From contig JABSSW010000003.1 in NCBI GenBank assembly GCA_018902385.1, positions 620,001 to 684,000 of the forward strand: 64,000 nt of DNA. The letters are read 5' to 3'. The notes under the pieces are model-generated. The model ran no database searches. It saw only the letters and a program-made list of their open reading frames with translations, and was not told where the DNA came from. Each line of letters opens with the position of its first letter. The first letter of the stretch is position 1. Made by a program: the position numbers and the translations under genes. The stretch is from Physcia stellaris. Lineage: Eukaryota; Ascomycota; Lecanoromycetes; Caliciales; Physciaceae. Of the stretch, positions 6,728 through 64,000 are shown in pieces.

Positions 6728-6762
6728 CTGGGCGTTACACGGACTGAGAGATACCCCGAGAT

Positions 6763-26930: not shown

Positions 26931-26934
26931 AAAT

Positions 26935-27279
26935 TCTACTTTCACACCGTGATATTATCGTCAATATCGCGTCAAATCGTGTCATTTTGACGACGTTTAA
27001 AAGCGTTGATAAAATTTTACAAATTTGCAATTGAAAATTAATTGATTGAAAATGAAATTATTGCATCGTTGTTTTGAAAAAATATGTTTTTTCAAAATCA
27101 AAATCAAAACAATTGTTTCAATTTTTCATCATATCAATTTTTGTGACGTAATTTTCATTTTTGATGTTTTAAAATTGTTGACAAATATTTATTCTAATAA
27201 ACGCATCAAATACAAATTTTTTTGAATGATTCGAATCAACAATGCTCGATTTTGCAAAAAAAACTCGAAAAATGAAAAT
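26935..27279. other. AT-rich left flank of element A, perhaps 5' part of the pogo relic
   Basis: This 345-bp stretch has no coding trace. It lies left of element A, whose right flank (34,731 on) leads into a pogo/Fot1 transposase relic. Because A is bounded by a target duplication (AAAAT), the sequences left and right of A were once contiguous. So this stretch may be the 5' non-coding end of the pogo element. I could not find its terminal inverted repeat. Confidence 0.35.
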
Positions 27280-27473
27280 TGTTATACGTAAAGTCTGAAT
27301 TGATTGATTTAGAAATTATAAACGACAAAATGTCAATTTATGTACAGTAATCGCGAATCAGTTGTCTGATCATCATTTATTTAATATGAAATGATGACAG
27401 AATTTTTGTCAAATGTTTTGCAAAAATATTCGATTTAAATTCAAATCATTTAATTTGATTTTGCGTCATAACA
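27280..27473 (-). repeat. LTR of element A, left copy (3' LTR)
   Basis: This 194-bp direct repeat matches 34,537-34,730 with about ten differences, nearly all transitions. Its ends are TGTTAT and ATAACA, and AAAAT precedes it. Because the element is coded on the minus strand, this is its downstream LTR. Confidence 0.92.
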
Positions 27474-30400
27474 ATCTGTCAATCAAAAAAAAGAAAAATC
27501 AATGTTTTTATTGAATTTCATGTTTTATCATTATGCGTAATCATATCATGCATCAATTTATTTTTTTTCGTTTTTCGTTTGTCGTTGCGATCATCAGAAT
27601 TTTGCGAATGATTGAATTCGTATTGCTCAATGAAATTTTGAAAATTTTGTAATTCGAAAATGAATCGTCATTCGTCATATTTCGACTCATAGTCGATTCA
27701 TTTGACTAAATATTGAGTTACGAAAATTTTGTTGTATTTTTTGATACGTTTGTCGATTACTTTTTCGATTTCATAAAATTTGTACTGATTCGTATCGTTT
27801 TCAATCTCAATGAAATCAAAATAATGAAAGCGAAAACGATTGTAAAAATCAGCGTCAACAAATGTTGATTCGAATTGAACAATAAACACGACGAAATGAA
27901 TTCGTCACGTTGATGACAATTTCAATCGATACGCAAAACGTTCGATACGTTCAAAAATTCGAAATGATTCGCATTTTTGTTGAAATAATTTCGAATTTGA
28001 TTTATCAAACAGTTTGTAATTTTTGTTGAATTGTAAATAAATTTTTTCGTTTTGTTTTAATCGAATCGAAATATGACGCGAATCATAATATATTTTAATT
28101 TTGACAATCGCGAAATTCGTGACATCAACAATTTTTCGCTGATATTTCATGCGTTGAATTGACAAATTCTGTACATTTGTTGTGTTAAATGCGATTAGAT
28201 TTGATATCGCGTTTCTGATTTTGAATTCGTATATGATTTCGTTGAATGATAAATTTGTAACGATGTTAAACGTGTTGTTTAATTGCGATTGAATTGCAAA
28301 AAAATTAAAATATAATCGATGTTCGAAAATTCGATGACGAAATATTTGATAACAATTTCAACAATTTGATTGATTCGTTTTGACGAATCATTCGTTTGCG
28401 AATGATATGTCATTGAAATTAACAATTTCGTGTTTAATTTGATGAAAAACATTTGTCAAAAATTCGACATGAATTTTGAATCACGATCGAAAATTATAGT
28501 TTCAAACATTTTTCAATCGACGATTAATAATTTGTTCAATAATGCGTTGATTCATTTTTTCGTTTCATAAATGTTTTTGTCGAAAATCAATGAAATTCGA
28601 CGAGAATGTTTACATGTTGCGAACATAACAATGTTCATTTCGTCGAACATAATTAAAATGAAATCAATGACAATGATATGAAACGAACGCGAAACGAATG
28701 TAATAAACATGAATTTTTCGTACGATCGATGACGCTTGATTTGTGTCAATTGACAAATAAAACAATGTTCGATGTATTTTTTAATTTTTCGCGAAAATCG
28801 AAATATGTATAACGTATTGAAAATTTTGTCATAACATCGATGAATTTTTGAATGCTGATTCGTATCGTGAATTAAACGAAATATTTCGCGTTTCACAACA
28901 ACAAATATACACGATCGACGCGTGTCAATGTCAACATGATATATAATGTCATTCGTATTCAACGCGAAATTGATTTTTGTTTTGAATTTTTTTGATATAA
29001 ATTTCGTATCGTCATTTTTTTGTTCATTGACGTTTCGTTTCGTTACGTTGTTTTCGAACGACGATGAAATTTGAAAATTTCGAATCGACAAATTTTGTTT
29101 TTTCGTGCATTCGAATCGTCAACGATTTTAACATCGTGATCATGTTTTGTCACGTTTTTTCGTTTTGATATTCGTTTTTGATTTTTTTTTTAAATTTTTC
29201 GACATGACAATAAGAATGTTTTGAAAAACGTAACAATCGAAATTATTCGAAAAATCGATTATTTCGTCATGATATGTGTTCAAATCAAATTTATTTTTTG
29301 AATTTTTGTCGATTTGTTCATTTTCAAACGTTAATTTTGATAACGCATTCGAAACAACATGAATTTTTTTTGATTTATATTTCATTTTCAATTTAAATTG
29401 TGACAAATAAATTGAAACACGAACAAGACGAAAATTGAATTTATCGATGTTGTTCGAATTTATCGTGATTTGCTTAACGATGAAAATATTGACGACATGA
29501 TTCGTGAACACAACAATGATATTTTTGATTGTTTTTATCATATGTCGAATTTTTTTGACAATTCATATTAAATCACACATTTCGAATTCGATGAATCAAT
29601 ATTTGATTTCGATTTCGTTCAACATTCGATTTAAAAATAAAATGAATTCGATATCGTTACGCTTGAATTTGTCTGAATTATTGTTTGTTTTGAAATGATA
29701 AATTATCGCGTCGAATTCGCGTCGTTTAAACATGTCGATGTCGATGTACAATTCTCAATCGAAATTGAAATGTATCAAAAATGAAATTTTGTTAAATTTT
29801 TTTTGCAATAGTCGATATGATTCTAATTTCTCAACTGAAAAATTATTTATTACATTTTTTTGCGAATAAATTTTGCGAATCGTTTTTTTGTTGCTTGAAA
29901 ATTGACGTAAAAATAAAATTTTGCGACGTTGTAACGCGTTCGTTTTTTGAACATAAAACGCGACGAAATTTCGTAATCATTCTGTAAGATTTAAATAGAC
30001 TTTCAGATTCTTGAAAGTATAAAAAAAATTCAACTTGATTATTGTTTTCAATTTGTCGATTGCGATAGTGAAATCAAAAACGTCAATCTTTTGATCAAGA
30101 AGTGCAATCGTAAAATAGTCGAGAAATGATTTTTCGACGACAAATTAATTTCATAAATATTCAATCGTTCGAATATCGAATGTAAATGAATCATATGTTT
30201 TTAAAAATATTGAAGAAAACGACAATGTCGTTTACGTAAACACGAACAAATTCGCGAAAATTTCGAAAAATAAAGTCGATTCGTCGTTGTACGTATGATG
30301 ATGAATTTTGAAATTTATCACGACGACGTTAAATTGTTTTTGTTTTTTATGTGAAACAACGATAAGTTTATGTTTGTTTGCAAACTTTATCAATTATTGA

Positions 30401-33400
30401 TGAAAAAATTCGCAACGTCAAAAACGAATATGAATTTGCAATCGATTACGATTGAAATAATGTTAAATTGAAAAAACATTGAATAAAAATCGATGAAAAT
30501 GATTTTGTTTAATTTTCGTATATTCACGACGATTTGATTTTTGCGTTTTGAATCATTTGATTCAAATACGATTTTTCATATTGCGAAAACAAGATAATCA
30601 TGCGAAATGAATTGATTAATGTATTTTATGCGTTTTTGTGCATGTAACTTTTCAAAAATTTCGTTTATAAATTTTTTGTTTGCGAAATCAAACGAATACA
30701 TTTTTGTTGTTTCAATTTTGACGTCGAATTTGAATTCAATTGACATTCATTTTTCAAACGAAATTCGTACAATAAATTCGTTATCATTTCACAATTTTGA
30801 ATAATTTTCGATTACATTTGCAAATTTAATTCGCGCGTTAATATCATCGTAAATCGTAATATTTGCGAACAAGATTTTCTCAACATTAATATTTGAATTT
30901 GAAACAGAATTGTTAGAATTTTCGCACGAATTAATTGCAAAATTGATCGTAAAATTGAAATTTGAAACGACGAAATTAAACGCGATCGCATCGTGCAAAT
31001 TTTCATAATTAATCGTCATAATCGCGTCATTGATCAAAATCGAAACATCAAATTTCATAACTTGTTTGAATCAATTGCGTGAAACAAATTTATAAACATT
31101 AACAATTAAATGCGCGTATTTCGAATTAATTAAATAACATTTTTTTCGTATTTTTGTACGAGCTTCAAACGCGTATTTTTGAAAATGTAAACATTTTCAA
31201 AATTGACGTTGTTGTTTCAATCATTTCTGTAAATGCATCAATGATATGAAAAAATACGTTTTCATTTGATTTAATCGTTGATTCGTGAAAACGTGAACAT
31301 AAAATCGCGTTCAATAAATAAATTATTTTTTTCACGTAATTTAAAAAAATCGTAAAAATTGATTTAGTTAAAATTTTAATAATTTCGTTGACACGAATCA
31401 CGCGTTTGATCGACAATTTCGTATTAATGACATTTAATTGAATTTTAATGTTTTGCAATTTTTAATGATAATCATTTGTTTGTTTACATTTATATTCATT
31501 CGTTTTGAATTCAATATATCATTGTCAAAAAAATTTTGTTTTCAATCTTTTTATTATGTAAATTTGTCGAGTGAACGTGACGATTGCATTTTCGTCATTA
31601 ATCGAAATTTCGAAAATTCGAAAAATTAATGAAATATGATTCGTCGTAATTACAACGACGTTTTCAATGTCGCGAATTTTGAAAAATTTCATAATTTGTC
31701 GCGCATGAATTCGATAATCAAATATTTTTTGCATAAAAAATTTACGATCGATCAATGACGTATCGCATTTTGTATCGACGCATATATCAATCAAACATTG
31801 TTCAATGTTTGTTTTTATCGTGACGTAACGTCACGAACGAAATTCAAAATTTAATTTAATGTTTGTTTTGACGTTTGATTGTATAATAAATATTTGATGA
31901 TTGTAAATATTTTTTGTCAACGATATGTCAAATTTAATCGAAACAATTTGACACGAACGCAAATGTCGATGAAATTTGTTATTGAAATAAAATTTCGATT
32001 GACAACGTTTGCACGAATAAATTTTCGTTTGTTTTGCAAAAATATTCACAAAATATTCGAATAATTCATGATTCACAAAATTTTCGTTAAATTTTTGAAT
32101 TTCGAAATGTTTTTCGTCATGATATTCATCATTTATCGCAAATATTTTCGACGCGTTTTCAATATTCATGTTGTGATCGTTTTGATAATTTTTTTCGTCG
32201 TTCGAATAATTGTTTTTTGTTTTTTCATTCGCAAAATACGTTCGTCGATATGATGTTTCATTTTGATTAAACGTTTCATTTTGATTGAAATAAATATTTT
32301 GTTTTGACGAAAACGAAAATAATGTTGAAAAATCAACAAAATAATTATTCAAACGTAAAAATTGCGAATATTGAAATCGCGAATCGAACGTGTTTCGATT
32401 TTTTTGAATTTCGTTTTGTTGCGTTTGTTGAAATCGATATTGTTGATTTTCGTATAAACGTTTTTGCATATTTTGTGTCGATTGTTGTCGATTTGAATAA
32501 TTTGATTGATATGAACGTTGTTAAAAAATGTAAACGTTATTTTGTTTTTCAAATTGATACGATGTCGAATATTGAATTTGACGAAATTGCGAAAAAAATT
32601 CATTGAAATTTTCGTAATTTACACGTTCATTGATAGCAAAAAAAATATTATACGAATCGAATGATGTTGACAAAATTGATAATTGAAAACGATAAATGAA
32701 TTGAAAACGACGTTCGTTTTCGAACGAATGATAAAATCGATATCGATTTTCGATATTTCATTATATTTTCTTTTTATCATCAAGTTGTTGAAAAAATTCA
32801 TTTATTGTAATTTTTTTTGTCGATTTGATCAAATTTCGTCGAAATTTCAATTTCAATTCATTGTAAATTAAATACAATTGCGAATAAATTGACATTATTG
32901 TCGATTTAATTTTTTTGATTATAATTTCAACGAAATCGAATGATTCGCGATGTCGACGAACATTTTTTATCGTGTATTTTTTTTTCGTGATGATCGTCAA
33001 CGTTGTCGATAACGATTTTTTTCATCGTTTCAACAATAAACGTTTTCATTTTTTTACGTTATTTTCGAATTTGATCAATCGTTTTTGATTATCGTTGATT
33101 ATTTTTGTGTATTAACGTAACGCGTGATCACGCATGCAATTATAAAAATTTGTTCGAATCACGTCGACATTTTTGAACAACGTCATATTTTTGATTTTTT
33201 CGATGTAAAAATGAACATTTCGAAAATATGTGTTTTTGTTCGAATGTTCGATCGAATTGTCGATAATAACGTTTTTTTTTTCGTATCATAAATCAAAAAA
33301 TTCTGTTTTTTGAACATTTCATTTGACGTTATCATCATTGTCAAGAAATTCGATTGAATTTGATAATTCGATGAATTTTGAAATTTTGTTTGAATGTTGT

Positions 33401-34536
33401 TTTTGATATTTTCGAACAAAATTTGAAAAATTTGTCATTGTTGTTGAATGAATTCAATGTTTTGTCAATTGTTATTTTCATTCGTTATGTCTGTATTAAA
33501 TGCGAAAATAAATTCGATATTTTTGTGTTTCGAGAAATAATATTCAGCGAAATTATGATGTTGTTTCGTTGTTGAAAAAACGACGTCGACGAAATGACTT
33601 GAAATTTACGACGTAAATTTTTCGAAAAATTAATGTAAAAATATCAAAAGAAATATTTGCAATCGTCGATTTTAATTCAAAAATGAATAACGTAACACGA
33701 TCATTGATTCAATCGAAAAATGATTGATTATTTCGATACGTTTCTGTGACGATCACGAAAATTTTAAAATTTTTGCGAAAACGAATTTTGTCGACGATTC
33801 ATTTTGTTGAATAAACAATGTTTGTCGAAATTGAATGATTAATAATTGACAACGATGTTGATTTAAAGCAATTAATTACGATGTTGTTCACAATAACTTT
33901 TGTCGATGTATTGACAAAATAAATTGAATCAATTGTATCGATGTAATCGAATAACTCAAACGCAATGCGAATAATTTGTAATGTGAAAACAATCAAAATG
34001 ACTTAAAAAAATGATGTGTCGTATTGAGATTTGAAATAAAAATGATAAACAAAACAAAAAAAAGAAAAGCGAATTGAAATTCTCAAAATAATTGAACAAA
34101 TTATTTGTTGATAAAAAAACAAATAAAATCGTTGAATTGAAATTGCTCGAATCAAACAAAAATTCAATAATGAATTGACATTCAAACGTGTCGTCATTGA
34201 GCGATGACAACACGAATTCAAACGAAAATTTGAAATATTCAATTATTTGAAAAAAAATCAATCGTTTTTATTGAAAATTGTAAAAAGTCGAAAAGAAATG
34301 ATTGAATGATTCATTTTCAAATGAATATTGATTGTTGATGAAAATGAATGATTGATTGTCGATCGAAACGTCAATTAAACGACAATCAAATTTTTGATTG
34401 CGATCGTGAAAAAAATATTGATAAACAGTTGATTTGCATACAAAATGCAAAACTGTTCGAAAATTGATACGTTAAAAAACAAAAAATGATGTCGTTTTGT
34501 TTACGTACAAATCATCGTTTGAATGATATTATCAAT

Positions 34537-34730
34537 TGTTATGCGTAAAGTGTGAATTGATTGATTTAAAAATTATGAACGACAAAATGTCAATTTATGT
34601 ACAGTAATTGCGAATCAGTTGTTTGATCATCATTCATTTAATATGAAATGATGACAGAATTCTTGTCAAATGTTTTGCAAAAATATTCGATTTAAATTCA
34701 AATCATTTAATTTGATTTTTTGTCATAACA
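34537..34730 (-). repeat. LTR of element A, right copy (5' LTR)
   Basis: This 194-bp direct repeat is the partner of 27,280-27,473 and has the same length. AAAAT follows it, matching the duplication on the far side of the element. Confidence 0.92.
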
Positions 34731-36417
34731 AAAATGCATAAAATGATCAAACGATTTTTTTTTGATCAAATTTTCATTTTTTTCATCACAACAATTACAT
34801 TTCAATTACACGTATATTTTAATAATCATGTTTTCAAAAATTTATTATGAATTGCAAAAGCGATTCGATCGCGTCACGAATAATTACAAACAAAATCATT
34901 ATTTTACAATCATCGTTGTCGCAATTGTTTATCAAATAAATCGACGAATATTTTTCAATCGTATTCGAAAATGTCATTTTAAATTCATTCGTTTTGTATC
35001 AAATAAACGTTTGAATGATGTTCAAAAACAAATTCTTTTCACGTACATCACGAGAAACGATGACATGAACATGTTTTTAATTTCGACATTCATTATGAAA
35101 ATCGTCAATTACATTTTTCGAAAATTGAATTCAATCGTTTTATCAATCAATGTTTTTTGATATAAACGTTTCAAAAATCGCAATTTTCAATTGAAATTGC
35201 GTCGTCAAAAATTCATCAACGTGATCAAAAAAAACGCGTTCAATGTGAAAAATTTGCAACGATATTTCAACAAATTGTTTTGAATATGCGACGAATACGA
35301 AATTTTGAACGTGAATAAATGAAACATGAATGAAATTGATTTTCGTATAAATTGCGATAAATTTCACATGATCATTATTTTGAATATTCAAAAAAAGTTG
35401 AAATTGACGAATTCAAAAAATAAAAATTACGTCAACGATATCGAAATCATTAATGTTGCGAATGAATGTGTTTTTTCGATGTTGATATTGAAAAATCATT
35501 ATATTTTATTCAAGTGAATTTTGAACAACGATTTCGACGATGAAATTTTTTTGAACGTCAATGAAACTGAATACAACAACGACGATTTCGTTTTGAAATG
35601 ATTAAAACATTTCATTAAACACGTTGAAAAAAAACGCGTTGATCGTTACATTTTTTTAATCATTGACGAATTTGAAAATCATATGATTTATTTTTTTTGA
35701 CGTTTGATCATTGACAACAACATTTTTTTGTTTCGATTGTCAATTCATTTTACACATCTGATTCAATTTTTCGATGTTGAAATATTTCAATTTTCAAACA
35801 GATTCACGAACGAACAATTGATCGAATCGTTAAAAACGACGATATCGAATTCAATCGTTTCGAATTTTTGAACGTTTTTTTGAATTTCGTCATGAAATAT
35901 TCGATAAAAAACGTATATTGCGCAATGTTTTTAAACGTACAAATATCGTTTTTTTCGATTTTGAAATCGTTTTACATTTTTTCAAAATTAGAAAAATTAA
36001 ACGAGAAATCGTTGCAATTCGAACAACAACGAAATTCGTTACTTTTTTTCAAACGACGTCAATGAGTGTTTGATTCGTACATTTCGTGAATTTCAATCAA
36101 TTCAAAAAAACGTGAACGTTTTACGTCAATTTCACAAAAATAACGATTTTTTCGATGTCGTCGATTTCGATCAATTTTTTCGTTTCATCAAAAAAACAAA
36201 AATTCTGTTTTCAATCAATTTTTTACACATTCGCGATTTCAACAATTCGTTGAATCGTATCGCGAAACGTAACACGCGAACGATTCATATTTTTGTTAAA
36301 ATTTCTATTACGTTCGATTTGATTGATGTTGAACATTGCAAAAAATTGCATTTCGAACGAATTGCAAAAAAAAAACTTGAAATCAAAACAAAAAAAAAAC
36401 GAAAAAATGCAACGACG
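34731..36417 (+). mobile_element. pogo/Fot1-type DNA transposon relic (Tc1-mariner superfamily)
   Basis: Plus-strand traces match the DDE transposases of the Fot1/pogo group. A first block starts at about 34,831 (SKIYYELQKRFDRVTN) and contains a CENP-B-like helix-turn-helix stretch with NKRLNDVQKQ and YIFRK. Further blocks resemble the catalytic part: the region near 35.3 kb reads MNEIDFRINCDKFHMI where active copies have MDETGFR, and LILKNHYI follows. IIDEFENHM near 35.66 kb fits the second catalytic region. A basic, Lys-rich end lies near 36.4 kb. Stops and frame changes interrupt the blocks throughout, so the gene is dead. No terminal inverted repeat is seen here. The left end may lie beyond element A and the right end beyond the window, because B1 starts within its 3' end. 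Confidence 0.78.
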
Positions 36418-36641
36418 TGTTACGAGCATGTCTGACAGATAGATTTGACAGATAGATGATTAATATGATATGTGATCGAACAACGAATTATGCTCTAATT
36501 TTACGTCGAAATTAACGTAATTTGAGTCTTGACGTCGCACATTGCTTGCAATTTCAACATTTTGTATTTATTTGTTTTTGCAAATTTATTGTTTTCGTTT
36601 AATTAATCAATAATACGTTTATTCAAACACGACTCATGATA
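36418..36641 (+). repeat. 5' LTR of element B1
   Basis: This LTR of about 224 bp begins TGTTACGA and ends near CATGATA. It is closely similar to the repeats at 41,726-41,948 and 63,527-63,750. The exact 3' edge is set by comparison with the copy at 63.5 kb and could move by a few bases. Confidence 0.88.
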
Positions 36642-39600
36642 TTACAATAAATTTTCAATTTTATCGCTCGTCGTGATACGCGAACGTTCAAAAATAAAAT
36701 TTCAAATCGATCAAATTTTTTTGACGAAACAAACGACGAAAAATTTTGTTGATCAAACAAACGATCAAAATTTTTTTTGACGAAACATTTGACGAAAATC
36801 GTGAAATAACAAATCGAATTTTTACGCAAACGACGATATTTTCGACGATAAAAAACGACGAAAAAACGAAAATTGATTCGATTAATTTTTTTTTTATCAT
36901 TTTTCAATTTTTCATTTTTAGTCATGATTCGAAATCATCACGAAACAATTTTTTTCGAATTTTTTATTTCGATGAAACAACGTTTCAAAACGTTACGTTT
37001 CAATGTGAATCGTATGTTGCATGAAATCAATGACAATTTTTTCGACGAAAATTTCGTCGAACAATTCAAACGTCGTCGATTTGTTTCAACGATCGAATTC
37101 ATAAAAATGAAAAATAATGAAATTATTCATTTTTTGAACATCGTCATCATCGATCAGTTGAAATGATGAATCAATCAAAAAATTATCGATTTTTTGAAAA
37201 AATTTGATCGATTACGTATCGATCGTGACAATTATTTGAACGTTTTGATTCAATATCAAAATTTGTACAATATCGTCAACGTCGATCGTGATGAATTGAT
37301 CAACACAAACGTTAAATTCGATAAAATTCGTAAAAAAATGAATACATTGAAAATCAATTACGAACAAACGCGTGATCGATTTTTAATCAAACAACACGAT
37401 TACATTTTTTTCAAAAAAAATCACGACGTTTTGTTAGTCACGATTCGCGATCGTACACGAAATTCTGACGACGACGATAAAAAAAACGACGGCGAAATCA
37501 ACGTAATTAATTTTTTCAATAAAAGCAAACGACGTTCGAAAACTCATTCAAATTTTTTTAAATTCATCGACGAAATGAAATTTATTTGACGAATTTGAAA
37601 AACAAAAATGCATGATAAAATGACGATCAACGTTGATCATTACGATACGAACATGATCGCAATTATTATTGTAATTGATTGAATTGAAAATAATGTCGAT
37701 AATCACATACAATCGATACGTGATATCGACATGAATCATTTCAAAAATTGACATATAATGTTGAAATTTCTGAATTTCATTTTCGAAAATTTTGATTTCA
37801 AACGCAATATGCGTATTCAATTTCGAACATTAATTATAAATACACAAAATTTTCAATTTTTTTTATTTCATTTTTTTTCGTTTTAGCAATTCAATCGATT
37901 ATAACGAAATCATCAAAATCGAAAAATTAATGAATAAAATTTTTGAAATTTGAAAAAAACGATGAATATATATTTTCGCGAATTCATCACGTTCGATGAA
38001 ATTCGAATCATTTTACAACAAATATACAATCGACAATCGAATTTTCGAAAAAAAAAAAATCGCGATTCGTCAACAACGTTTTGAATTGTTTCAATTCAAA
38101 TCAATTTTTGTCGTTTCGATTTTGATGATTTTTTACGAAATTTGTTATTTCGATTTTTTCGCGAAATTTGCAATTCATTTTCATTTCAACGTTGAAATCA
38201 AAATTCGTGATTTGATAATTGATAAATTGATCGTCACGAACAAATGTTTCACGTACGATGAAATCGATCACGTATAAAAAAAATGTTCGAACGTTCACAA
38301 ACATCAAAAACGTCATTGATACAAAATGCAAATATTTTACATGAACATGATTAACGAATCGAGCGAATTTGATTCGAAAAATTGATAATTCACATCAAAA
38401 CGCGATTGATGAATGTTTAAAAATTTTTTTATTCATTATAACGAATTGTTTGATTTTTTTGTCAAACGATTTTTAATTATTAATTGTACGTTGTCATTCA
38501 ACGATAATAAACATAAATTAAAAACTTTAATAAATATTGATGCAATTGATTATGTTTTCATTGATAAAGAAATTGCGCAATTTGTATGCAACATGTTGAA
38601 CATGAATTTCGTATCTTTATTAAAATCGAAATTCATTATTGAATTCGACGATCGTCAAATTTTTTTAATAATTTATGTTATTTATTTCAAATTGACAATT
38701 GATTTGCATTTCGAATTGACAATTTTTTTGTTCATCATCGATTTGAACAATCATTCGATAATTTTAAAAAAATCGTGAATGAACAAACATGAAATTATTT
38801 TGAATATGATTTACGATAAATTGATTTTCAAATCGTTCAAATGTAATTATCATGACAATATATTTATCAAAACAATGCAAATTCGACGTTTGAAAATTTT
38901 TGATTCAAATCGTCGATGAAACGTATTTAATTGACGTCGCGATGTTTTTTTATCGAAAACAAATAACGCGAAACATATTGTTACAATAAAATTTCGATAT
39001 ACGATTTTATTTCGTTCGCAATTTAATTTTTCAACGTTTTATGTACAAAACGAATCAAAAATATTCGATTCAAAATGTTTCGATTGTTTCATTCATTCGA
39101 AAATCGATCAAAATGACGAATCGTTCGTCGTTGAATCAAATCATTCAAAAATTGATATCACAACGATTACGAAAACGACGTTCGTCAAAAAAAAAAATTT
39201 GAAAAAACAACGCAACAAACGTTGAAAAATCAAAAAACAACAATTCGAAATTTTTTCATTTTCAAAATTGAATTCAGACGATTCGATGAATATCGCGATA
39301 ATTGATGCGATTTTTTTTTGTTTATTCGTCGATTTCAAAAATCGAAAACAAAAAATGCAATGTTTTTTCATTACGATCAATCAAATCGATTTCGCATTCA
39401 AAACATTGCGAACAAATTTTGAATCGTTGAAAATTGTCGTCATAATCAAAAAAATTTTGAAACACGAACAAATCAAATCGATTTTTGAACGTATAATGAA
39501 AAAAATATCGAAATATTTTAAATATTTGTCAAAAATATTCGATTTTCAAAAAACAATTGAATTGTCGTCGTATCGAATTTACGATCACAAAATCGAATTT

Positions 39601-53041: not shown

Positions 53042-56000
53042 ATTGTTTTTTTTTTTAAAATTTTGATTTTCAAAATCGAATCGTCGATGTTTTTTTTGCG
53101 TGTAATTCATTCGATTTTTCAGTTTTTTCGTTTAAAAAAATTTCGTGAAAATAATTTTTTGCGTGACGTCAATTCTTGCGCGATTTTCAATTAAAATTTT
53201 TTCGTAATTTTCAATGTTGATGCTCGCGATCATGCGATAATTTTTTTGTTAATCGTGATGTTGTCATTTGAAATGTATTTCGACATTTATGATACACGAC
53301 ACGAATATGTTCAAATCAATATTTGTTTGAATCATCAATACATTGTTGTTTTTGTTGAACAAACGAAAACAAACGTTTTTGCGACGTTTGTTTTTTGCGA
53401 ATTCGATTTTTTTTGAACGTAATTTTTGATTTTCGAACACGTTCTGTTTTTCGACATTGAAATAAACAATTTAAATCAACTTTTGTATGATTCAAATGAT
53501 TTAACGATAAAACGCTGAAATTAAAATTTTTTAATTTTAAAAATAGTCGTTCAAATCGATTTTTGAACAATGTTTTTTTGTTTTTTGTCTCGTTTTCTTT
53601 TTGTTTTAATGACGATTTTTTTACGTTTTATTCGTGTCATTTGATTTTACGCGTGATAATATATTCGTGTCAAAATAAAACATAAAATTTCAATTTGATT
53701 TTTATTTGTCATCGTTCAGATAATTTAATGATAAAACGCAAAAATAAAAATTTTTCATTTTTGAAATTGTCGTTCGAATCGACGTCAACATCATCGTTTT
53801 TTTTTTTTTTGCTTTTCGATTTGCATTTTGATGACGATTTCTTTGCGTCGTTTCGAATATAAATAGATTTGTTTTGATTTTCATTCATTTCTATTTTTAT
53901 ATGATTTATTTTCACTATCAATGACAAATATTCATTGTAATTCAAATAATGAAATTCATTCATTGTAATTTATGAATCGATGACGTGACGACGATTTCAT
54001 TCATTATTACGTTTTCAATGTGAAATGAAAAAAATTAATTTTCAATTGTTCGAATCGACATTAATTTGTCGTCGTTGAACAAACGTTTTGTCGTGTTCGT
54101 TGTATGATTTTTTTTCGTTTCATTTGCGATTCATCGCGTTCGTCGTTTGTTTTGATGAATGTGTTGAACATTTAATTAACGTTTTAACGCGTACACAAAA
54201 ATTCATTGCGATCATTTTTTCATTTTTTTTTTCAATATTATTTTGAAACAATTTGATAAAAATGTTTTTCGCGTTTAAATTGTGTTTTGTTGACGTTGAC
54301 AATTTGTACAATATCAAAATTGTCAACAATAAATTTATTGTTTTTTTTTTGATTGTTGTTATTGAAACACGTAATGATTTCGCGTGACGTTAAAATCAAA
54401 ACTGTAAATTTGATTTGATTTCGTGATTTCGTGTGTTAATTTTTGTAATTTTTTAAACATGTTGTGAACACGTTTCGTGTAAAATGTTGTATGAAATGCG
54501 TCAAACGCAAACTTGACGATATCGAACATGAAATATGTATTTTGCGTTTTCAATTAATCGCGTTGATTTGCGCAATGTTTTCGATCGTTTCACGACGACA
54601 AATGTTTTACGTGCGTGTCGATTCGCAAATTTTGCACGTTAATTTTTTTTAAATATGTTCGTCGAATTCAACAACATTTGACGATTTTGACAATTGCAAT
54701 AAAACACAAACGCGACAATTTGATGTTCAATTTGCAATTGCGTTTGAAAAATACGATTGTGAAAATTCAACAACATTTTACACAACAAAAAAATCAAATC
54801 AACATCGTTTTATTGAAAATTTGTTGTTGCGTTTGAAATTTCGACTCGTCGATATCAATCAAATTTTACGTTTTATGATCGATTCGTTTCGCGTCAATGA
54901 AAATTTTTCAACAATGCGTTTCGCGAATTTCTCGAATGATAAAAAAAATGAAAATCAAATTACGATTGATGTTGAAATCATGAATTTCGACGACAACGAC
55001 GTCGAATAAACGTGATGATCGTTTTTGAACATTATTTTTATCAAAATCGAACAAATCGTAATCAGTCGAAAAAATCGATACGATAAAAACGAAAATAAAA
55101 TTCAAAACGATGTTCATTGTAATTCACAAATTTTGATTTGTGATTTTTTTAACACAAAAACGACGACGAATTGAAAAAACATCGCATGAAAAAATTAATT
55201 AATGATTTCAACATGTTTATTAATCATTTGTACATATTCAATGCAACGACACAGCTATTAAAAAAATGAACTTTATTGATTTTATTACATGTGAAACAAT
55301 TTACTGTAAAGAAATTCGCATTTTGCGTTTTTTTTGTTACAGATCGTCGTTTTTCTTTTTGAATTTCAAATTTGATTTCGCAAAATTTCGTTTGAACGAT
55401 CGTTCTTTTTTTTTGACGAAAAATGACAATTGAATTTCGACACGTTTTCGTTTGAACGTTGTCAACGTCTCGTCGACGTTATTCAAATTTTTTTTTTTAA
55501 TTCATTCATTATCACATGACGAATATTTTTTTCAACGAATCAAATATCGAAACATTTTTTTTTTCACGTCGAGAATCTTTTTTATTTTTCATTTTTCGTG
55601 ATCGTTTATCAAGATTATTTTCGCAAACGATTTTGTGAATTCGTTGATATAATATTTTTCGAATAAAAACACGTGAAATATTGAATGAATGCGTCATTTG
55701 AATGACAATTTTAAACGATAAATTTGCGTGTCGACAACGTTTTTAATTTCAAAAAATTCGATGTATTTGTCGAACAATTTTTTTTTTGATCGCATTTGTT
55801 TTAAATTTTTGATCGACAACATGATTTTGTTTTTTACATTGTATGTTTTCGCGAATGTTTTTTGTTGATTCATTTTGTTTGCGTTTCATTATTGTGTTTC
55901 AAATTTTTTTGTAATTTTTTCGTTTATCGAACAGATTTTGAAATTTTTGTTTCGTTGTCGAAATGTTTGTTGAACAAAATCGAATTTAAAATTGAAATTT

Positions 56001-59000
56001 GAAATGTATTCGAACAAAATTTCAAACGAAATTAATTCAATAAACGCGTGTTTCGCGCAATTGTATACGAAAACGATCATTAACAACAACGAAATTCAAT
56101 TGTTTTGTTTGTGATTGCAAAAACATCGCAAATAATATTCAAAAATTTAATTTTGTTTTTTCGTTTGATCATTTGTTTGTGAATGAAAAACGATATTAAA
56201 TTTGCGTTTAATTTTCGCGTAATAACACAATGTTAATCAAAAATTGTTTGTAAACAAAAATTCACGATTTGAAATTATGTTTTTCGATGAATTATATTTC
56301 AAAAAAACGTCGTCAAAAAACAAATTACACATTTTGTTTGTTTTCATGATAAATTTGATCGAAATGTAAATCGTCATTTTAATATATCGATTTATTATTA
56401 TCATGATCGAATCGTAAATTTTTTTGCGTCATTTATTGAATGAAAATTTTGTGATCATATCAATGATAATTTTTTTTCATGATTTTGTCGACATCGACAA
56501 TTTCGACAATTTTTCGTAAAAACGATGATGATGAATTTTTGTTTTTTGACATATCGCGCATTTTTTGATGTATTTTTCGATGTTTTTTCGCATGTACATT
56601 CAATAAAATTTTCGTTGAATGAAATTAACGATTTTTTCAATTTCGAAATGTTTCGCAAAAAAATCGTCGTGACAACGTCGCAAAATTTCGATTTTTAAAT
56701 TTGTTTCATTTGATACATATACAACATGTCAATATCGTAAAATATTGTTTGAATTTAATGTTCAATTTTTAAATTTTTTGTCGTTTCGTATGAACGCGCG
56801 ACGTTTTACGCATTCATTGTCGAACATTTGCAATTTTTCAATTTTGTTGAAAAATTTCTGAAATGAATTTTCGTACGAATTTTTTTTGTCACACGTTTCA
56901 GCAATTTTTTTTCGACGCATTGTTTGCGATATCGCGACAATTTCGTTTTGAAAATTTTTTTTTGAAAATTTTTCGTCAAAAATTTTTTCGCATTGTTTTG
57001 ATTTCGTTGAAAACGCGATATTCGCAATTGCGATGTTTCGAAATTTGTTTTGCAATGTGAACAAACAAATGTTATCGTTTTCGTTTTCGTTTTCGTAATT
57101 TGAACGTCGAAATGATTCGTTTGTCGAATTGAAATTTTCATTTTTGTATTTGATTTCGAAATCATATTCATTTAACAATAAAATTCATTTGATTTGTCGT
57201 TTGTTCAAAAACGTGATAAACATGAAATATTTCAAATTGTTATGATTCGACATTACAATGATCGTAAATTGATTATTTTTTAAATAATGACGTTATTGTT
57301 TGAAATTTTTCACGATAACGAGCAATTTTTGATCGTGCGTTGAATATTTAATTTCGACAAATATCATTTTTTTTGAATAAAAAACGACGAAATGTCATTG
57401 CGTTTGATTTTCGATGTCGAAATTTTTTATCAATTGCGAAATCATTTTTGCGATGACGAATTTTGAAACATCGATTTCAATTATTGTTCGATTATTGAAA
57501 TCGAAATGCATTAACATGAACGTTTCGATGAACATGCGAATGAATTTTTTGAAAATTTTCATTGTTTCGTCGTTTCAAATGAATTCGTCGATTTGTTTTT
57601 CGTTTTTGTTATTTTTCAATAATTCGAAAAATGAACGCGACATTTTCGCATATTTTACGATGAATTTTCGATAAAAATTTGCGAATTTCAAAAAAATTTG
57701 CAATTTTTTGAAATTGTCAAAAATCGATCATGATTTGATCGAGTTTATTCTTTTTATGTTCATGAATATTTTTTTGTTATTGATGATATATTTTAAAAAC
57801 TCGATGAATTTCTGCATAAATCGACATTTGATCAAATTGACGAAAAAATTGAATTTTCGAAAACGTTTAAACATCGTTTTTACGTGACGTCAATGTTTTT
57901 TTTTCGTTCGAAAATAAATCAAAATGTCGTTTAAAAACAACACACACAATTTGTTTATCAATTTTGCGAACATTTTGTTCATGAACGATTGAAAAATCGT
58001 CGATGCGTTGACAAAATCGAAAAACATCACGACGTATTCGAAAAAATCGTATCGTGTTCGAAATGCAATTTTTCATTCGTTATTCGTTTTGATTTTTATA
58101 CGATAATACGCGTTTTTCAAATTTAATTTGATGAAATACGCGACGTTAAATCAAACGATTCAATGTTTTATCAATCAACGATAATAAAATTCTGTTTTTG
58201 ATCGTGATCGCGTTCAAATTTTTGTAATTCACGCAAAATTTTAAATTTTCGTATTTTTTTGAAAATGAACAATATTGACGCATCGACATCGACAATCGAA
58301 TGTTTGATACGATTCAACGTAAAATTTTCGCGAATGTATTTTTGAAAAATTTTTAATTTTTTTTGAAACATATTGTACAAAAATTCGAAAAACGAAAATT
58401 TGTTCGACATTAAATCAATGACATGATCGTGTTCGTCGTGCGAAAAAAACGTGATCGTCGATTTGAAAAAAAACACATTTTCGAATATTTGCAATTCGTT
58501 CGAAATTTCGATCGACGTTTCGTCGTTTTTTCGTATGATACACATTAACGCGTACATTGAAATGATGTCATCGTTCAACATTGTCGTGAAATTTTCGAAA
58601 ATGTTTAATTTCAATCGATTTTTTTTGATTGTGTAACGTCACGTTATCGTGAATCAATGTACGTGTGAATTGTTTTTCATTATTCATGAAAAATTCATTA
58701 TCAGAAAATACATCAAGTTTTGAAACGAATAAAATTTTTGCATCGAAATGAAAAAATTATTTTTGTCATCACGAACATTCATTTTCATTTGATACGTATT
58801 AATGAAAAATTTGTTTTCGACATCGAAATTATTCATTTTCATGAACGTTTCGTCGATATTTTGCAAATTTCATTTTTTCGTTAACGATTTCGAAATGCAA
58901 TTTATGTTAACGACAAAATTCATGAAATTCATTTGCGATTATCATTTTTCAAAAATATTGACGTTGACGCGAATGAATATATTATTTGATTAAATTTTGT

Positions 59001-60450
59001 GTGAATTCGTTACGACAACGACGATTATCGCAACAAATTTTTTCAATTTTTCGAATCATTTTTGATTTCGATAAATTTTGAAAATGTTTTGTTTTTATTT
59101 TTGCGAATCGCATTGACGTCGACGATTGTTTTCTTTTTTGAATAAAAACAATTTTTTTTTTATGTTTCGATTCATCGCAATTGTAACAATTTCGATTTTT
59201 TTTCGTCGACGAATTGACGTCGTTTTTTTTGTTTTTATCAAATTAATTTTTCGCTTTATCAGATTGCGCAAAAAAAATTTTTTTGACGAAATTTTTGTTT
59301 TTTTGACGTTCACGATTTTCGAACGAAAAAATTTGCGAAAATCGAAAACGTTTTGAAAATTTTTGATAAAATGACGATCGTTTTGCATTGACGATTTTGA
59401 ACAAAATTTTTTGACGAATCGTCGACGAAATTGCATCGAATGTGATAATTTTTCGTAAAATATCGTTCAAATCATAAAAAAACTTGTTTCGTTTGATGTT
59501 TTCGATGACGTTCAATTTTGTTTTCAACGATTCGAAATGCGTCGCGAATTCATTCATCGTTTTTTTTTTTTGACATCATTGTATTTTTGATTCACATCAA
59601 AACGACGAATTTCAAAAAACTCGACATCGTTATGAAAAAATTTCGAGAAATACGATCACGTCATCATCAATTTTTTTCGATGTTGATTGATTTTTTGATG
59701 CGATTTTCATAATTCGATTGAAATCGCATCAAGAAATTGTTGCGTTCAAACGATTTTGATACGACGTTTGAAAAAATAATTAAAATTTGCGTCGAAAATT
59801 CACACGACGTTTCGAATTCACGATTGAAATTTTTTAATACTTTTGACGTTGTAAATGAATAAATTTTTGAATTTGAATTCGATGATTCGTCGAGAACGCG
59901 AACGTTTCGAAATAAATTTATTACGAAATTTTTCGTTGTCGTTATTGTCATCGTCGTTTTCGTTATTGAAAAACGTTTGTGAACGTTTTCGCTTTTTTTT
60001 CAACAACGCGAATTGAATTAATTTCGTTTTTTCGAAATGACGTTGTATCGAGACGTTTGATTTTCGTCAAAAACAATTTATATTCACGTTTGTTTTTCGT
60101 TTTTTTTCAATTATCGTTTGAATTGTTCGCAATTGTGCGTAATTCGTTTGATTATCGAATTCGAAATCGTCGACGTTCGTTGAAACGACGATAATACGTC
60201 GAAACGACACGCGAAAAACAACAACAATGCGTTCGTCGTTTGATGAATTTTCATGAATTGAAATCAACTCGTCTCGTTGATCGATTTCAAATTGAAACGA
60301 TTTCACGATCGTGTTGTCGAATGATGATTGTTGAAACGAAATGACGATATTGTTTCGAATAATGAACGCAATGACAACAAATGTTTTCAAAATTTTAAAT
60401 GATGTCATTTGATCGAACAGTCGTTCACGAGAATTTAAACAATTCAAAAT

Positions 60451-60664
60451 TGTAAAAAAATATACGATTGAGTGATCAAATGACTACAGACAAGCGCAAT
60501 GTCTACGAGACGATGATAAATCATCGTGATAACATTGTGAATAATGATAGAATTGAATCGTGAAAACGAAAAAAAATAAAAATTCTCGAAATGTTATACT
60601 TTATCGATCAAGACGCTAGACTCGATCAGATTAACGTGCTTGACGATCTTGACATAACATAACA
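60451..60664 (-). repeat. LTR of element D, right copy (5' LTR)
   Basis: This 214-bp partner of 52,828-53,041 ends CATAACA and is followed by ACAAA. It keeps many CpT and ApG dinucleotides that the left copy has lost. Confidence 0.93.
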
Positions 60665-62588
60665 ACAAACGCATTAAAAAAATCAATCTGAATATTTTAT
60701 TGCATGAATAAATTCATCGTCATATGAAAATTCGTGAAAATCAATGAAACATTTCGAAAATGCGAAAAACGCAATTGTCAAATTCGAAAATGCGCGCAAA
60801 TTACGCAAATCTGAAAAAATTGCGAAACGTCGAAAAACAAACAAATTCAAAACGAAATCGAGCGAAAAATTTTCAGCAAAAAAGCAAACACGTCAATTTT
60901 TAAAATTGAAAAAACGTGAACGATTCAAAAAACAAAAATAACAATAATTGCGACGCAAAAACACAAACAATAAAATGATATTGTGAATTGTTTTTGATTA
61001 CATGCACAATTTGCATACAACAAACAAACAACAAAACAACACGTCACAACAGAAAGCAAAATTCAACATTCAACGAAAAAAAACACAACAACAAACAAAA
61101 TCATGCGATCATTAAATCGAAAAAAACACGAAAATGTAAATCAACGCGTCAATAAATTCATCAATCAAAATTCACATCACAACAATCAAATCGATTTCGA
61201 TTGCGTCATGTTAATTGTTGTCGCGTTTAATGAAATTTTGTTTATCATTGATTACGCGATTTTGTTGAATCGAAATCGACGCAAAAACAAACGCGACAAC
61301 AAACGAATTTGTTTGCGATGCAAACGCAACGAAATCAACAAACGAAACAAACGCAAACGAAACGAAAACGAGAAAAAAAACGACGCGAAAATCGAAAAAC
61401 GAAACAAAAAAAACTCGAATCTTCTTTCGAGCAAAAGCAAAAACAGACGAAAAAAAAAAATGACAAACAAAAAAATCTCTTTTTCAGCGAATTTTGACGT
61501 GACAATCAACGCAATCTTGCGAAAAAAAATTTTGATAAAAAACAACGAATTTTTTTTATGTCATTTTGTTTCATGTTAATCACGTTATGCATCAAAAATC
61601 GTGTGTTATTATTTTTTCAATGTTGAAAAGTCAATTTCAAATTGTCGTTATTTTTGACAGCGAAAATGCGAACGTTGCTTTGCAACTTGTAAAAACATTT
61701 TTTTTCACAATAATGAAAATTTTTGTTGCAAAGTTCGCATTTGTTTCATTTATTGTCGTCAAAAAAACGTAAACGTGTTTTGAATTAAAACGAAATTTTC
61801 GAACGCAACGTTGACATCACATATGAATTGATTTTGTTACGTGTCAAATTGATATGAAACAATTGTGTGTGTTTGTTTATTGAATTTGATTACAATGCGA
61901 TCGCGAACATCGCGATTCGAATACATGTTTGTCGTATTGATTGTATTCAACAATTCGAACGTTAAAAGTTTATCAATTTAACACGCGTCAACAACGTCAT
62001 CGTTATTTACAATACATTTACAACAAAAACAACAAATTGCGTGTTTTTGCGAAACGTAACAAACAACGACGAAAAAAAAATGAAATCATGATTTGTTGTA
62101 TCGTTAACACACGCATTGCATTGTCGACGTTCAAAAATCAATTTCGTCGTCATTGAAACATTATTGCGACAGCATCATCATTTGCAAAAACGATGTGATA
62201 ATTGTACAAACAACGATATATCATGTTGACATTATTGTCGCAATAATTGTTGTTATCGCAAAAACAAAAAAATCAAATGAAATATTTACTATGTTATGAA
62301 ATAAAAATGTTAAAAGAAAAAAATTCAAAAATGAATTGAAAAATTCAAATAAACATTTTTCAACACACGACGCGATTTATTTCGATTCGATTTCACAACA
62401 CGAACGCGATATTTGAAATTGCATTACATTGTTATTGTTATTTCTATTTATTGAATTACAATGCTTCAAGATTACACGTCGAAAACACAAAATTATTTAC
62501 AAAACAACGTTGTTGCGATACATTTCTGATATGCTATAAAGACATTGATAGCTGACGCGAAAAATCGATCATTCAAAGAAAAAACAAT
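60665..62588 (+). mobile_element. 3' part of element C downstream of element D
   Basis: This 1.9-kb stretch between D and the right LTR of C starts with D's target duplication ACAAA. It carries Lys/Arg-rich open stretches on the plus strand at 60,744-60,941 and 61,103-61,579, the second very rich in Asn, Lys and Arg. They may be remains of an additional 3' reading frame or the end of pol. I do not recognise a specific domain in them. Confidence 0.6.
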
Positions 62589-62786
62589 TGTAATGAGACG
62601 AAATCGATCAAGCGAACGCTAAAACGTTGTGAATTTAATTGTCGCATTTCGTGTTTATATACTCGAAATTTCACGAATTTTTTTTCTGTTTTTTTAGCAA
62701 TTAGTTCTATTATGTGTTTAGCATTTATCATAGCAATTCATATTATTATTCGCACATTCTAGTTACGCAGTGCTTACATCTTTACA
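62589..62786 (+). repeat. 3' LTR of element C
   Basis: This 198-bp partner of 47,523-47,706 ends TTTACA and is followed by ATATG. It keeps more C and G than the left copy. Confidence 0.88.
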
Positions 62787-63526
62787 ATATGTTTCATTGT
62801 TGACTTTTGCGCAAAAATTTTCGTGATTCGTTCGAAAATCAAATTAATGAATTTTTTGATTTTGTCATAATCAACGAAAATTCCGAATGAAAAATGAACA
62901 ATATTTTGAAATTTCGATATCATTACAATCGTTTTCAATATCGTGTCAATTGATCGAATTGATCACATAATCGAACATGATATTATATTAACAACGAAAA
63001 ATTTAATAATGTTTGCGACGTAATGAACGATTTTCATCGCATTCATTTCACGATTGCAAATTCAAAATCGTTCAAAACGTTGATTTCAATATTTCAAAAC
63101 GTCGTCAACGAATCAAATTTTTCAACGAATCGTCGTCGTTTTCGAAAAAAGATCGTCATTTTGACACTAATCGAAATTACATTCGATTAAGTTGAAAGTT
63201 TCGAATTCAATACATTTATCTCGATTTCACTTTCGCAACGTTTTCGCAATTTCTGATTTTCGTTATCGTTTCGATGTTATTTACAGTCAAAATTTACGTC
63301 GCATGAAAAGTTGAATCGTGTCAAAAACATTTTCAAAAACTGTTGTCAAATTTTGTCGAATTTTGAAACAATAACGAAACATCTGAAAATGAAAAATAAT
63401 GATCGTGAAATTTTTGAATTTTGCAAATATTCAAATCAATCAACAAGATTTTCAACAAGATTTTTCAATTTCGAAACAACAACGAATCGTCGAAACGACG
63501 TTCGCGAAAAAAAAAAAAAAAAAAAA
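62787..63526 (+). mobile_element. 3' part of element B2 downstream of element C
   Basis: This 740-bp stretch lies between the right LTR of C and the right LTR of B2. It begins with the target duplication of C (ATATG). It corresponds to the end of the B2 integrase/pol region and the 3' untranslated part. Only short open stretches remain, rich in Asn, Phe, Lys and Arg as everywhere in this block. Confidence 0.75.
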
Positions 63527-63750
63527 TGTTACGAACGTGTTTGACAAATAGATTTGACAAATAAATAATTAATATGATATGTGATCGAACAACGAATTAT
63601 GCTTTAATTTTACGTTGAAATTAGCGTGATTTGAAACTTGACGTCGCACATTGTTTGCAATTTCAACATTTTATATTTATTTGTTTTTGCAAACTTATTG
63701 TTTTCGTTTAACTAATCAATAATACGTTTATTCAAGCACGATTCATGATA
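63527..63750 (+). repeat. 3' LTR of element B2
   Basis: This LTR of about 224 bp is the partner of 41,726-41,948. An A-run of roughly 20 bases precedes it. AATAT and then the resumed B1 integrase region (TGCAATTACATACAAAACG) follow it. Confidence 0.9.
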
Positions 63751-64000
63751 AATATTGCAATTACATACAAAACGATTGAAATGTTTGATTGTTCATGATT
63801 AAATTTGCAAACAATAACGCGATATTTGCAACAACAAATTTGTCATCATTTTTCGTCAACAAGAATTTTCATTTTCGTATGAGTTTTTATCAGATTTTAT
63901 TTCGTATGTTACAACGAGAAAACGATTTTTGATCGTCAAAACAAAAAATATCATCGACACGATGCAAAATATTTTCAATTACGTACGAAATCACGCAAAA
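63751..64000 (+). mobile_element. resumed integrase region of element B1
   Basis: Just after the right LTR of B2 the sequence continues the B1 integrase region. It matches the corresponding stretch of B2 at about 47,025-47,330 with scattered, mostly C/T and G/A differences and a few length changes. It is cut by the window end. Confidence 0.85.

Follow-up and report, generated by a model that had tools for sequence, protein, structure and literature searches.

Introduction

RIP acts on repeated DNA, rDNA included (PMC5555474), and the available sections of the literature tie it to CpA: this context makes up 90% of RIP sites in Leptosphaeria maculans (PMC4352252), and a 2025 kingdom-wide survey describes a CpA preference as common to RIP-like defences (PMC12543289). 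Other contexts are described in the same limited body of text. Transposons of Botrytis cinerea, Sclerotinia sclerotiorum and Magnaporthe oryzae carry a CpT/CpA signature, and in M. oryzae and B. cinerea T4 CpT is listed as the predominant one of the two; it was found in 10-40% of TEs and CpA in 10-35%, and the available part of that text makes no mention of CpC (PMC4352252). RIPCAL alignment counts give CpT as the largest class in Neurospora crassa Tad1 (PMC2621366) and in RIP-capable controls (PMC7882544), though CpA indices show RIP in both. According to the parts of the reports at hand, CpT to TpT and CpA to TpA are both dominant in Anisogramma anomala, with raised TpA/ApT (PMC10998396), transposons of Basidiomycota and Tuber carry CpG-type C to T changes (PMC4352252), and CpA and CpG are mutated more than CpY in Sclerotinia Tc1-Mariner elements (Clutterbuck 2011, as cited in PMC4188875). 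As to the enzymes, the sections available state that EQT or EET replaces ENV in motif VI of the Masc1/RID class, that B. cinerea Rid carries EET (PMC6709928), and that Botrytis and Sclerotinia possess two RID homologues, each with its catalytic domain at the C-terminus (PMC2432034).

Here, we analyzed a stretch of 64,000 nucleotides from Physcia stellaris (the window), together with related sequences elsewhere in the genome. The target of mutation is CpY (C before C or T) as against CpR (C before a purine), and CpC is hit at least as strongly as CpT.

Results

An AT-rich block with almost no CpC and little CpT

The window consists of a gene-bearing flank (1..26930) and an AT block (26931..64000, A+T 0.733). 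The flank, which served as an internal control, has ordinary dinucleotides (CA 1822, CC 1567, CG 1490, CT 1870), and its segment 24001-25000, to which the copy-number test was confined, occurs at a single place in the genome. Plus-strand counts in the AT block are CA 2318, CG 2371, CT 217 and CC 2, and TG 2402, AG 228 and GG 1. The preliminary description had noted that C persists there almost solely before A or G and that CpT/ApG and CpC/GpG are nearly missing; both points hold, the former for 4689 of 4908 C (95.5%). The AT block is thus DNA in which almost all CpC and about nine tenths of CpT have turned into TpC and TpT on both strands, while CpA and CpG are mostly retained. Its left edge is abrupt, with the final CC near 26947, and its right edge lies about 2 kb beyond the window, near C3:686041.

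The dinucleotide pattern exceeds chance and extends outside the window. GC content was bimodal among 264 sampled 1-kb genome windows, 68 falling below 0.34, 195 above 0.42 and 1 in between, and the AT/GC frequency ratios were 0.90 for CpA, 0.002 for CpC, 1.15 for CpG and 0.11 for CpT. Block edges could be resolved to within 100-300 bases at all five edges examined, which, together with the bimodal GC content, argues for a fast, bounded process. COX1, sought as a mitochondrial AT-rich unmutated control, gave no match, and AT-rich nuclear DNA known to be single-copy, in which an equal CpT depletion had been named beforehand as a refuting result, did not come to light.

Elements within the block and comparison of their repeats

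Element A (27030..34786, 7757 bases) has repeated ends at 27030-27531 and 34270-34786 and carries an integrase zinc-binding domain in the minus-strand ORF 28552-29088 (Integrase_H2C2, E 4e-9); it contains no CpC, 104 CpT, 994 CpA and 930 CpG. As previously described, its ends (27030/34270) differ in a mixed fashion (CpA 31, CpG 18, CpT 6). The pair, whose 489 columns include 83 transversions, is old or poorly alignable and is too diverged to carry weight.

The B family (36371..47502, plus strand), presumably Ty3-type, comprises two in-register tandem LTR-element copies with a period of about 5305 that are 89.7% alike, and holds 1 CpC, 68 CpT, 1302 CpA and 1460 CpG. It includes a reverse-transcriptase (RT) segment at 39268..40017 on the plus strand, whose reading frame stays open over 250 codons. 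This ORF matched no Pfam family and was named after a GC-rich relative (C12), which overlaps an RVT_1 match. The segment stays stop-free despite the conversion of almost all its CpC.

Element D (52825..60665) is nested inside an outer element, whose repeat pair lies at 47523-47723/62589-62803 (47523..62803). Its own LTRs are at 52825..53042 and 60448..60665 (plus strand), and its reverse transcriptase, encoded on the minus strand, is interrupted by 2 TGA stops (RVT_1 at C3:677788-678144 minus, window 57788-58144).

Within 218 columns, the element D LTRs differ by 20 transitions and 1 transversion; the 16 CpT, 4 CpA and 0 CpG changes reproduce the earlier hand count, and CpT was changed at 16/19 sites versus 4/31 for CpA (Fisher p 7e-7). 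The B-family LTR pair 36390-36641/63507-63750 follows the same trend that had been reported for it (CpT 13, CpG 4, CpA 3), and the outer pair shows CpT 11, CpA 2 and CpG 1 transitions beside 9 transversions. Mixed results came from the comparisons 41613/63418 (CpA 10, CpG 9, CpT 9) and 47022/63751 (CpA 10, CpG 6, CpT 4), and from the 5.8-kb tandem copies (CpA 148, CpG 89, CpT 49 and CpC 1 differences). CpT differences are few between the latter because hardly any CpT remains: C common to both copies stands at CpG 684 times, at CpA 573 times and at CpT 6 times.

Pooling six LTR pairs yielded 58 CpT, 25 CpA and 1 CpG changes, with 84 transitions versus 10 transversions; CpA changed more often than CpG (25/172 and 1/150, p 1e-6). 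In an LTR family of 20 copies, CpT columns were variable at 27/27 (mean 0.83 T), CpA columns at 19/28 (0.08) and CpG columns at 3/26 (0.006), and CC and GG were missing from all 20 copies retrieved.

Polarised counts in reverse-transcriptase copies

Changes were polarised by comparing 19 AT-rich copies of the RT segment with one GC-rich copy, excluding 78 sites that were neither C nor T. C was converted to T at 1742/1776 CpC (0.98) and 1746/1904 CpT (0.92), as against 226/1721 CpA (0.13) and 165/1877 CpG (0.09), so that CpA as the main target, the outcome named beforehand as speaking against a CpT-type preference, did not appear. C to T and G to A changes numbered 3898 versus 128 in the opposite directions and were evenly split (1982 and 1916), that is, C:G to T:A on both strands. 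The 5' base had no effect on CpC or CpT conversion: ACC and GCC were converted as much as TCC and CCC (0.97-0.99). Conversion of TCA (67/501) and TCG (68/798) was similar to that of ACA (39/214) and ACG (22/386).

The copy in the window (39268-40227, 957 columns) had lost 112/113 CpC, 125/132 CpT, 13/120 CpA and 2/116 CpG. Copies varied in their CpR changes, from little in L051 (CpC 93/93, CpT 97/99, CpA 3/90, CpG 2/100) through L053 (CpA 16/90, CpG 4/100) up to 27/90 CpA in the most diverged copies; CpA is thus not fully spared. Compared among themselves, the copies varied at 79/103 CpA and 51/99 CpG columns. Two GC-rich copies of the family differ at just 32/960 positions, implying that repeats can escape or that these are recent.

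An rDNA relic follows the same rule

At strongly conserved Rfam positions of an rDNA relic, which is no transposon, C was lost at 20/25 CpC, 15/32 CpT, 0/35 CpA and 2/28 CpG (CpY 35/57 versus CpR 2/63, p 6e-13). In this lightly mutated DNA CpC exceeded CpT (p 0.014). The contrast is weaker when all positions are taken regardless of conservation, with U/(C+U) of 68/86 for CpC, 42/68 for CpU, 14/59 for CpG and 6/56 for CpA. Eight dispersed 5S genes of 108-120 bases exceeded the Rfam cut-off.

The C to T signature is therefore carried by two LTR-element families and, independently, by the rDNA relic, and is absent from gene-bearing flanks. The RIP-like, non-CpA preference put forward in the preliminary description is supported, but its CpT label is too narrow, since CpT comes into view once CpC is exhausted; the rule is CpY.

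Mutation models and RIP indices

When host windows were mutated in silico at CpY alone, at rates taken from the observed ratios, their trinucleotides came close to those of the AT block (r 0.994, total variation 0.048), as compared with r 0.34 for a CpA model. The CpY simulation misfits in TpA/ApT (0.35 against 0.42 observed) and in the substrate index (1.52 against 1.31). A CpT-only rule was rejected because it leaves excess CpC (0.0825 versus 0.0002 observed; r 0.934).

None of the 68 AT windows passed the standard RIP thresholds (product > 1.1 or substrate < 0.75), the largest product being 0.627 and the smallest substrate 0.984; the traits of canonical (Neurospora-type) RIP, i.e., preferred CpA, high TpA/ApT and low (CpA+TpG)/(ApC+GpT), are lacking. 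The CpY/CpR ratio separated AT windows (median 0.04, maximum 0.28) from GC windows (median 1.01, minimum 0.69) without overlap in the sample.

Stop codons

TGG to TGA is the sole stop obtainable by a single CpY change, so that frames may remain open for hundreds of codons. RVT_1 matches contained 249 TGA among 285 stops (TAA 33, TAG 3; 149 of 150 listed rows). Stops in the B-family RT segment were not chiefly TGA (TAA 169, TGA 165, TAG 5 in 150 listed rows), and 56 of the 150 listed copies had none. Only one of the 320 codons in its GC-rich relative encodes Trp, which leaves CpY few stops to create there; the TAA need other changes. The notion that TGA stops prove the rule holds for the RVT_1 matches and fails for the B-family segment, and we give it little weight.

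Methyltransferase genes

The DIM-2 class is marked by an ENV triad, a long region between motifs VIII and IX, and a BAH domain. The search for RID and DIM-2 homologues suggested earlier revealed one DIM-2-like gene, at about C3:340-343 kb, and two RID/Masc1-class genes. The former has the ENV triad and the long region between VIII and IX (PF00145, E 3.7e-36; DUF7893, E 8.7e-30); no BAH match was found at E 0.001 in this protein, whose N-terminus is incomplete. The RID/Masc1-class genes, one on C6 (508 aa) and one on C5 (934 aa), are both open, and their proteins contain the C5-methyltransferase domain PF00145 (E 3e-42 and 3.8e-41) and SPPCQ, which includes the PCQ looked for. The motif VI triad is EET in the C6 protein and EQT in the C5 protein. 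A further Masc1/RID-class criterion, taken from the available part of its source (PMC6709928), gave 55 aa for the C6 and 63 aa for the C5 protein, with motif borders set by eye.

Discussion

The sharp-edged AT blocks follow a context rule, run from C to T and are near saturation. We consider it probable that they arose from repeated DNA through a RIP-type mutator whose context preference is inverted. Duplicated DNA would be recognised and then mutated from C:G to T:A. CpC and then CpT are converted nearly to completion on both strands, and C before purines (CpA and CpG) is mutated weakly; in base steps, pyrimidine-pyrimidine is mutated and pyrimidine-purine spared. The action may be homology-triggered and premeiotic, and a RID-class enzyme would carry the specificity, perhaps the EET-triad paralogue, to which a correlation with Botrytis points.

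Alternatively, C could be deaminated in repeats irrespective of context, with T:G mismatches subsequently repaired before purines only, so that the rule lies in repair. TDG-type T:G glycosylases act on CpA and CpG steps, and the joint sparing of these two contexts as well as the irrelevance of the 5' base at CpC and CpT would fit; however, near-full repair at CpG would be needed alongside almost none at CpC, given the losses in the window copy, and we regard this explanation as unlikely. Slightly less credible still is a slow decay, in which a DIM-2-like enzyme methylates CpY in silent repeats and 5-methylcytosine deaminates over the long term. The DIM-2-like gene and the differing conversion level among copies agree with it; the single window between the two GC modes, the excess of transitions over transversions in LTR pairs and the lack of CC and GG in every retrieved LTR copy speak against it. 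Canonical CpA RIP, with the pattern as a by-product of base composition or saturation, could draw on the RID-class genes and on the CpA differences between saturated tandem copies, yet it is refuted by near-host CpA frequency in AT windows, unchanged CpA at conserved rDNA-relic positions, the RT-copy counts and the model fits, and we attach next to no probability to it. The same applies to an APOBEC-like deaminase or UV-type damage: some APOBECs have a hotspot at CpC and UV targets dipyrimidines, but both need a 5' pyrimidine, which the retention of TCA and TCG like ACA and ACG and the conversion of ACC and GCC like TCC and CCC rule out.

Returning to the RIP-type mutator, we tentatively raise the possibility, itself rather doubtful, of a separate RIP branch, in which an EET-triad RID paralogue would read the step class after C. 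Such RIP-proficient fungi would be scored RIP-negative, because standard indices rest on CpA/TpA. This blind spot is tangible here, where TpA/ApT and CpA-depletion indices score heavily mutated blocks of 26% GC as RIP-free; standard tests would miss mutation of C before C or T, and a simple CpY/CpR ratio distinguishes the blocks that they overlook. Elements appear to be disabled largely through missense, which may mislead pseudogene calls. As a natural opposite choice with a strong contrast (CpC 98%, CpG below 10% in RT copies), the system lends itself to a clean test by RID-class swaps.

The pattern resembles canonical RIP of N. crassa and L. maculans in its C:G to T:A changes, repeated targets including rDNA, AT-rich blocks and a RID-class gene. 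It differs in that CpA is the main target there, whereas CpC and CpT are hit and CpA is nearly spared here, and in that TpA/ApT rises in canonical RIP and falls here (0.42). So far as the available sections of the reports go, CpT is a target in Botrytis, Sclerotinia and Magnaporthe too, and the first two likewise have two RID homologues; unlike in these fungi, mutation in P. stellaris has almost saturated CpC and CpT and left CpA nearly untouched. Anisogramma anomala, on the same basis, shares CpT to TpT and differs by its dominant CpA to TpA and raised TpA/ApT, and CpG, the target described for Basidiomycota and Tuber, is the best-kept context here. The bias described for Sclerotinia Tc1-Mariner, as cited, follows the same division between CpA/CpG and CpY and is the mirror image of the pattern in P. 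stellaris.

CpC and CpT are lost in bounded AT-rich blocks

The window spans positions 620001-684000 of contig C3 in an assembly (G000) of 43,974,083 bases in 147 contigs, from which the mitochondrial genome is apparently absent (a COX1 search gave no match). Its first 26.9 kb carry genes, with about 50% GC and ordinary dinucleotides, and from position 26931 onward GC is about 27%. The near-absence of CpC/GpG and CpT/ApG from this AT block (26931-64000), claimed in the preliminary description, was borne out by the counts (CC 2, GG 1, CT 217, AG 228), with CA (2318), TG (2402) and CG (2371) abundant. Composition switches within about 100-300 bases at all five edges examined, namely the left edge of the window and loci L009, L010, L011 and L023. 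L010 and L011 bound a single block of about 3.2 kb (G000:C3:702808-706028), which has the same loss of CpC and CpT (CpY) and is flanked on both sides by gene-like GC-rich stretches.

Twenty 10-kb stretches (4 beside the window, 16 hand-chosen elsewhere) together with the window gave 264 one-kb windows, of which 68 were AT-rich, 195 GC-rich and 1 intermediate; the 16 outlying stretches account for 160 of these windows, 26 of them AT-rich. AT/GC frequency ratios were 0.903 for CpA, 0.002 for CpC, 1.152 for CpG and 0.110 for CpT, and the ratio of CpY to CpR (CpA and CpG) separated the sampled AT and GC windows without overlap. A simulation in host GC windows with conversion rates of 0.998 for CpC and 0.89 for CpT, fitted to these ratios, yielded a GC of 0.262 (0.263 observed) and a trinucleotide r of 0.994, compared with 0.934 for CpT-only, 0.336 for CpA-type and 0.772 for context-blind models. 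It misfits TpA/ApT (0.35 vs 0.42 observed) and (CpA+TpG)/(ApC+GpT) (1.52 vs 1.31).

LTR pairs, reverse transcriptase copies and an rDNA relic

For the LTRs of element D (52825-60665; LTRs 52825-53042 and 60448-60665), an earlier hand count of 16 CpT, 4 CpA and 0 CpG transitions was reproduced exactly, with 1 transversion. We fetched 20 of the 40 listed copies of this LTR, hand-picked to cover likely pairs, and assigned six pairs as two ends of one element by spacing. The proposed CpT preference stood across these pairs (transitions CpT 58, CpA 25, CpG 1, CpC 0; transversions 10; C common to both members CpT 9, CpA 147, CpG 149), while CpC changes are invisible in them because CpC is already exhausted, CC and GG being found in none of the 20 copies. 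CpA is a weak second target in the pairs. Its frequency of change was about 20-fold that of CpG (25/172 vs 1/150).

The B family comprises two LTR-element copies in tandem register (36371-47502; period about 5305 bases, about 90% alike), with a reverse transcriptase (RT) segment at 39268-40017 (+). This segment has GC-rich relatives (about 50% GC, 59% protein identity to the window copy); the two fetched, L049 and L050, probably belong to the same family, since the differences are almost all C to T. With L049 serving solely as counting reference, we scored the window copy and 18 further AT-rich copies (19 in all), the latter hand-picked down the list of 149 other places listed, excluding 78 sites with another base. 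T had replaced C at 1742/1776 CpC, 1746/1904 CpT, 226/1721 CpA and 165/1877 CpG sites; split by 5' base, conversion was 0.97-0.99 for CpC and 0.90-0.95 for CpT. CpR change was lowest in L051, L055 and L058 (CpA 3/90, CpG 1-3/100) and highest in five copies of identity 0.63-0.67 (CpA 19-27/90, CpG 16-19/100), which fits sub-family divergence and age. The pattern of copy L053 (CpA 16/90, CpG 4/100) is unlike decay and suggests weak CpA activity. Compared with each other, the copies varied at 81/81 CpT, 79/103 CpA and 51/99 CpG columns, with mean T fractions per column of 0.89, 0.25 and 0.17. L049 and L050 differ at 32/960 sites (CpC 14, CpT 8, CpG 5, CpA 2, transversions 3); CpY makes up 22/29 transitions against an expected 51% (p 0.008), and the excess of CpC over CpT between them is not significant (p 0.12). 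These differences suggest that the process has acted on the two relatives lightly or recently.

The sole 5.8S match reported lies in an AT-rich 5.8S-ITS2-LSU relic (G000:C41:43501-46500), repeat DNA other than a transposon, and 2.5 kb of this locus (L069), used as a DNA query, matched a single place. Against the Rfam consensus, a reference independent of this genome, the relic repeats the same context order. Within 5.8S and LSU 1-453, the positions of strong conservation (upper-case in the consensus) have C kept/changed to U at 35/0 CpA, 26/2 CpG, 5/20 CpC and 17/15 CpU (CpC vs CpU, p 0.014); at all positions of these stretches the counts were 50/6, 45/14, 18/68 and 26/42. Working rDNA presumably exists in an array that the assembly probably lacks, because the only 5.8S match is this mutated relic and the search found no working copy.

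Consequences for open frames and RIP indices

A single CpY change creates a stop solely from TGG (to TGA); CAA, CAG and CGA require CpA or CpG changes. Stops within RVT_1 matches were TGA 249, TAA 33 and TAG 3 (149/150 matches listed). The B-family RT segment had TAA 169, TGA 165 and TAG 5, and 56 of the 150 matches listed were stop-free. Few CpY-made stops are possible in this segment because its GC-rich copy has 1 Trp codon in 320, and its TAA stops need changes other than CpY. The window RT frame has no stop in 250 codons. AT-block ORFs of 105-264 codons, including 39268-40017, persist despite heavy mutation, and such frames could be taken for genes.

CpA-type RIP raises the product index TpA/ApT and lowers the substrate index (CpA+TpG)/(ApC+GpT). 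The AT-window medians were 0.41 and 1.31, and 0/68 AT windows had product > 1.1 or substrate < 0.75 (thresholds from the available text of PMC6714961). Laxer limits of 0.8 and 0.9 would likewise flag no window, as the maximum product was 0.627 and the minimum substrate 0.984. Surveys using these standard indices would overlook CpY-type mutation.

Mechanism and comparison with known systems

The process converts C to T on both strands before a 3' pyrimidine, nearly to saturation and within bounded blocks, and has acted on LTR elements and rDNA. A context-blind mutator combined with purine-specific repair would leave an identical final pattern; we consider this quite improbable. The likelier reading is a RIP-type mutator that follows the pyrimidine rule itself; it would sense duplications, act premeiotically and have a RID-class enzyme as its catalyst.

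The available portions of published reports on RIP contexts include CpA-dominant cases, CpG as a target in some fungal groups, and CpT as a companion target or, by alignment counts, the most frequent one (in M. oryzae and B. cinerea T4, PMC4352252; N. crassa Tad1, PMC2621366; RIP-capable controls of PMC7882544); CpT is therefore already known as a target. For Monilinia, double changes of CpC to TpT are reported in addition to classical CpA changes (PMC8959702), and for Sclerotinia a CpA/CpG-over-CpY bias (Clutterbuck, as cited in PMC4188875). In the largely open-access passages surveyed on RIP contexts and RID, we found no report of CpC and CpT as main target with CpA spared.

A PF00145 search, which may overlook divergent DNMT5, gave four pieces representing three genes; of the RID and DIM-2 homologues that the preliminary description suggested searching for, these comprise two RID-class genes and one DIM-2-like gene. 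With starts and introns read from DNA alone, the C6 gene encodes 508 aa (EET triad, 55 aa from motif VIII to IX), the C5 gene 934 aa (EQT, 63 aa) and the DIM-2-like C3 gene at least 1117 aa (ENV, long insert). The C6 and C5 proteins, which share 40% identity across 305 residues of their catalytic regions, carry the Masc1/RID class marks described in the accessible part of PMC6709928.

Like this genome, Botrytis and Sclerotinia have two RID homologues each (PMC2432034, available text), their transposons show CpT beside CpA (PMC4352252, likewise), and the triad of B. cinerea Rid is given as EET. Because of this likeness, the EET paralogue may be regarded as a candidate, and only a candidate, for the CpY rule.
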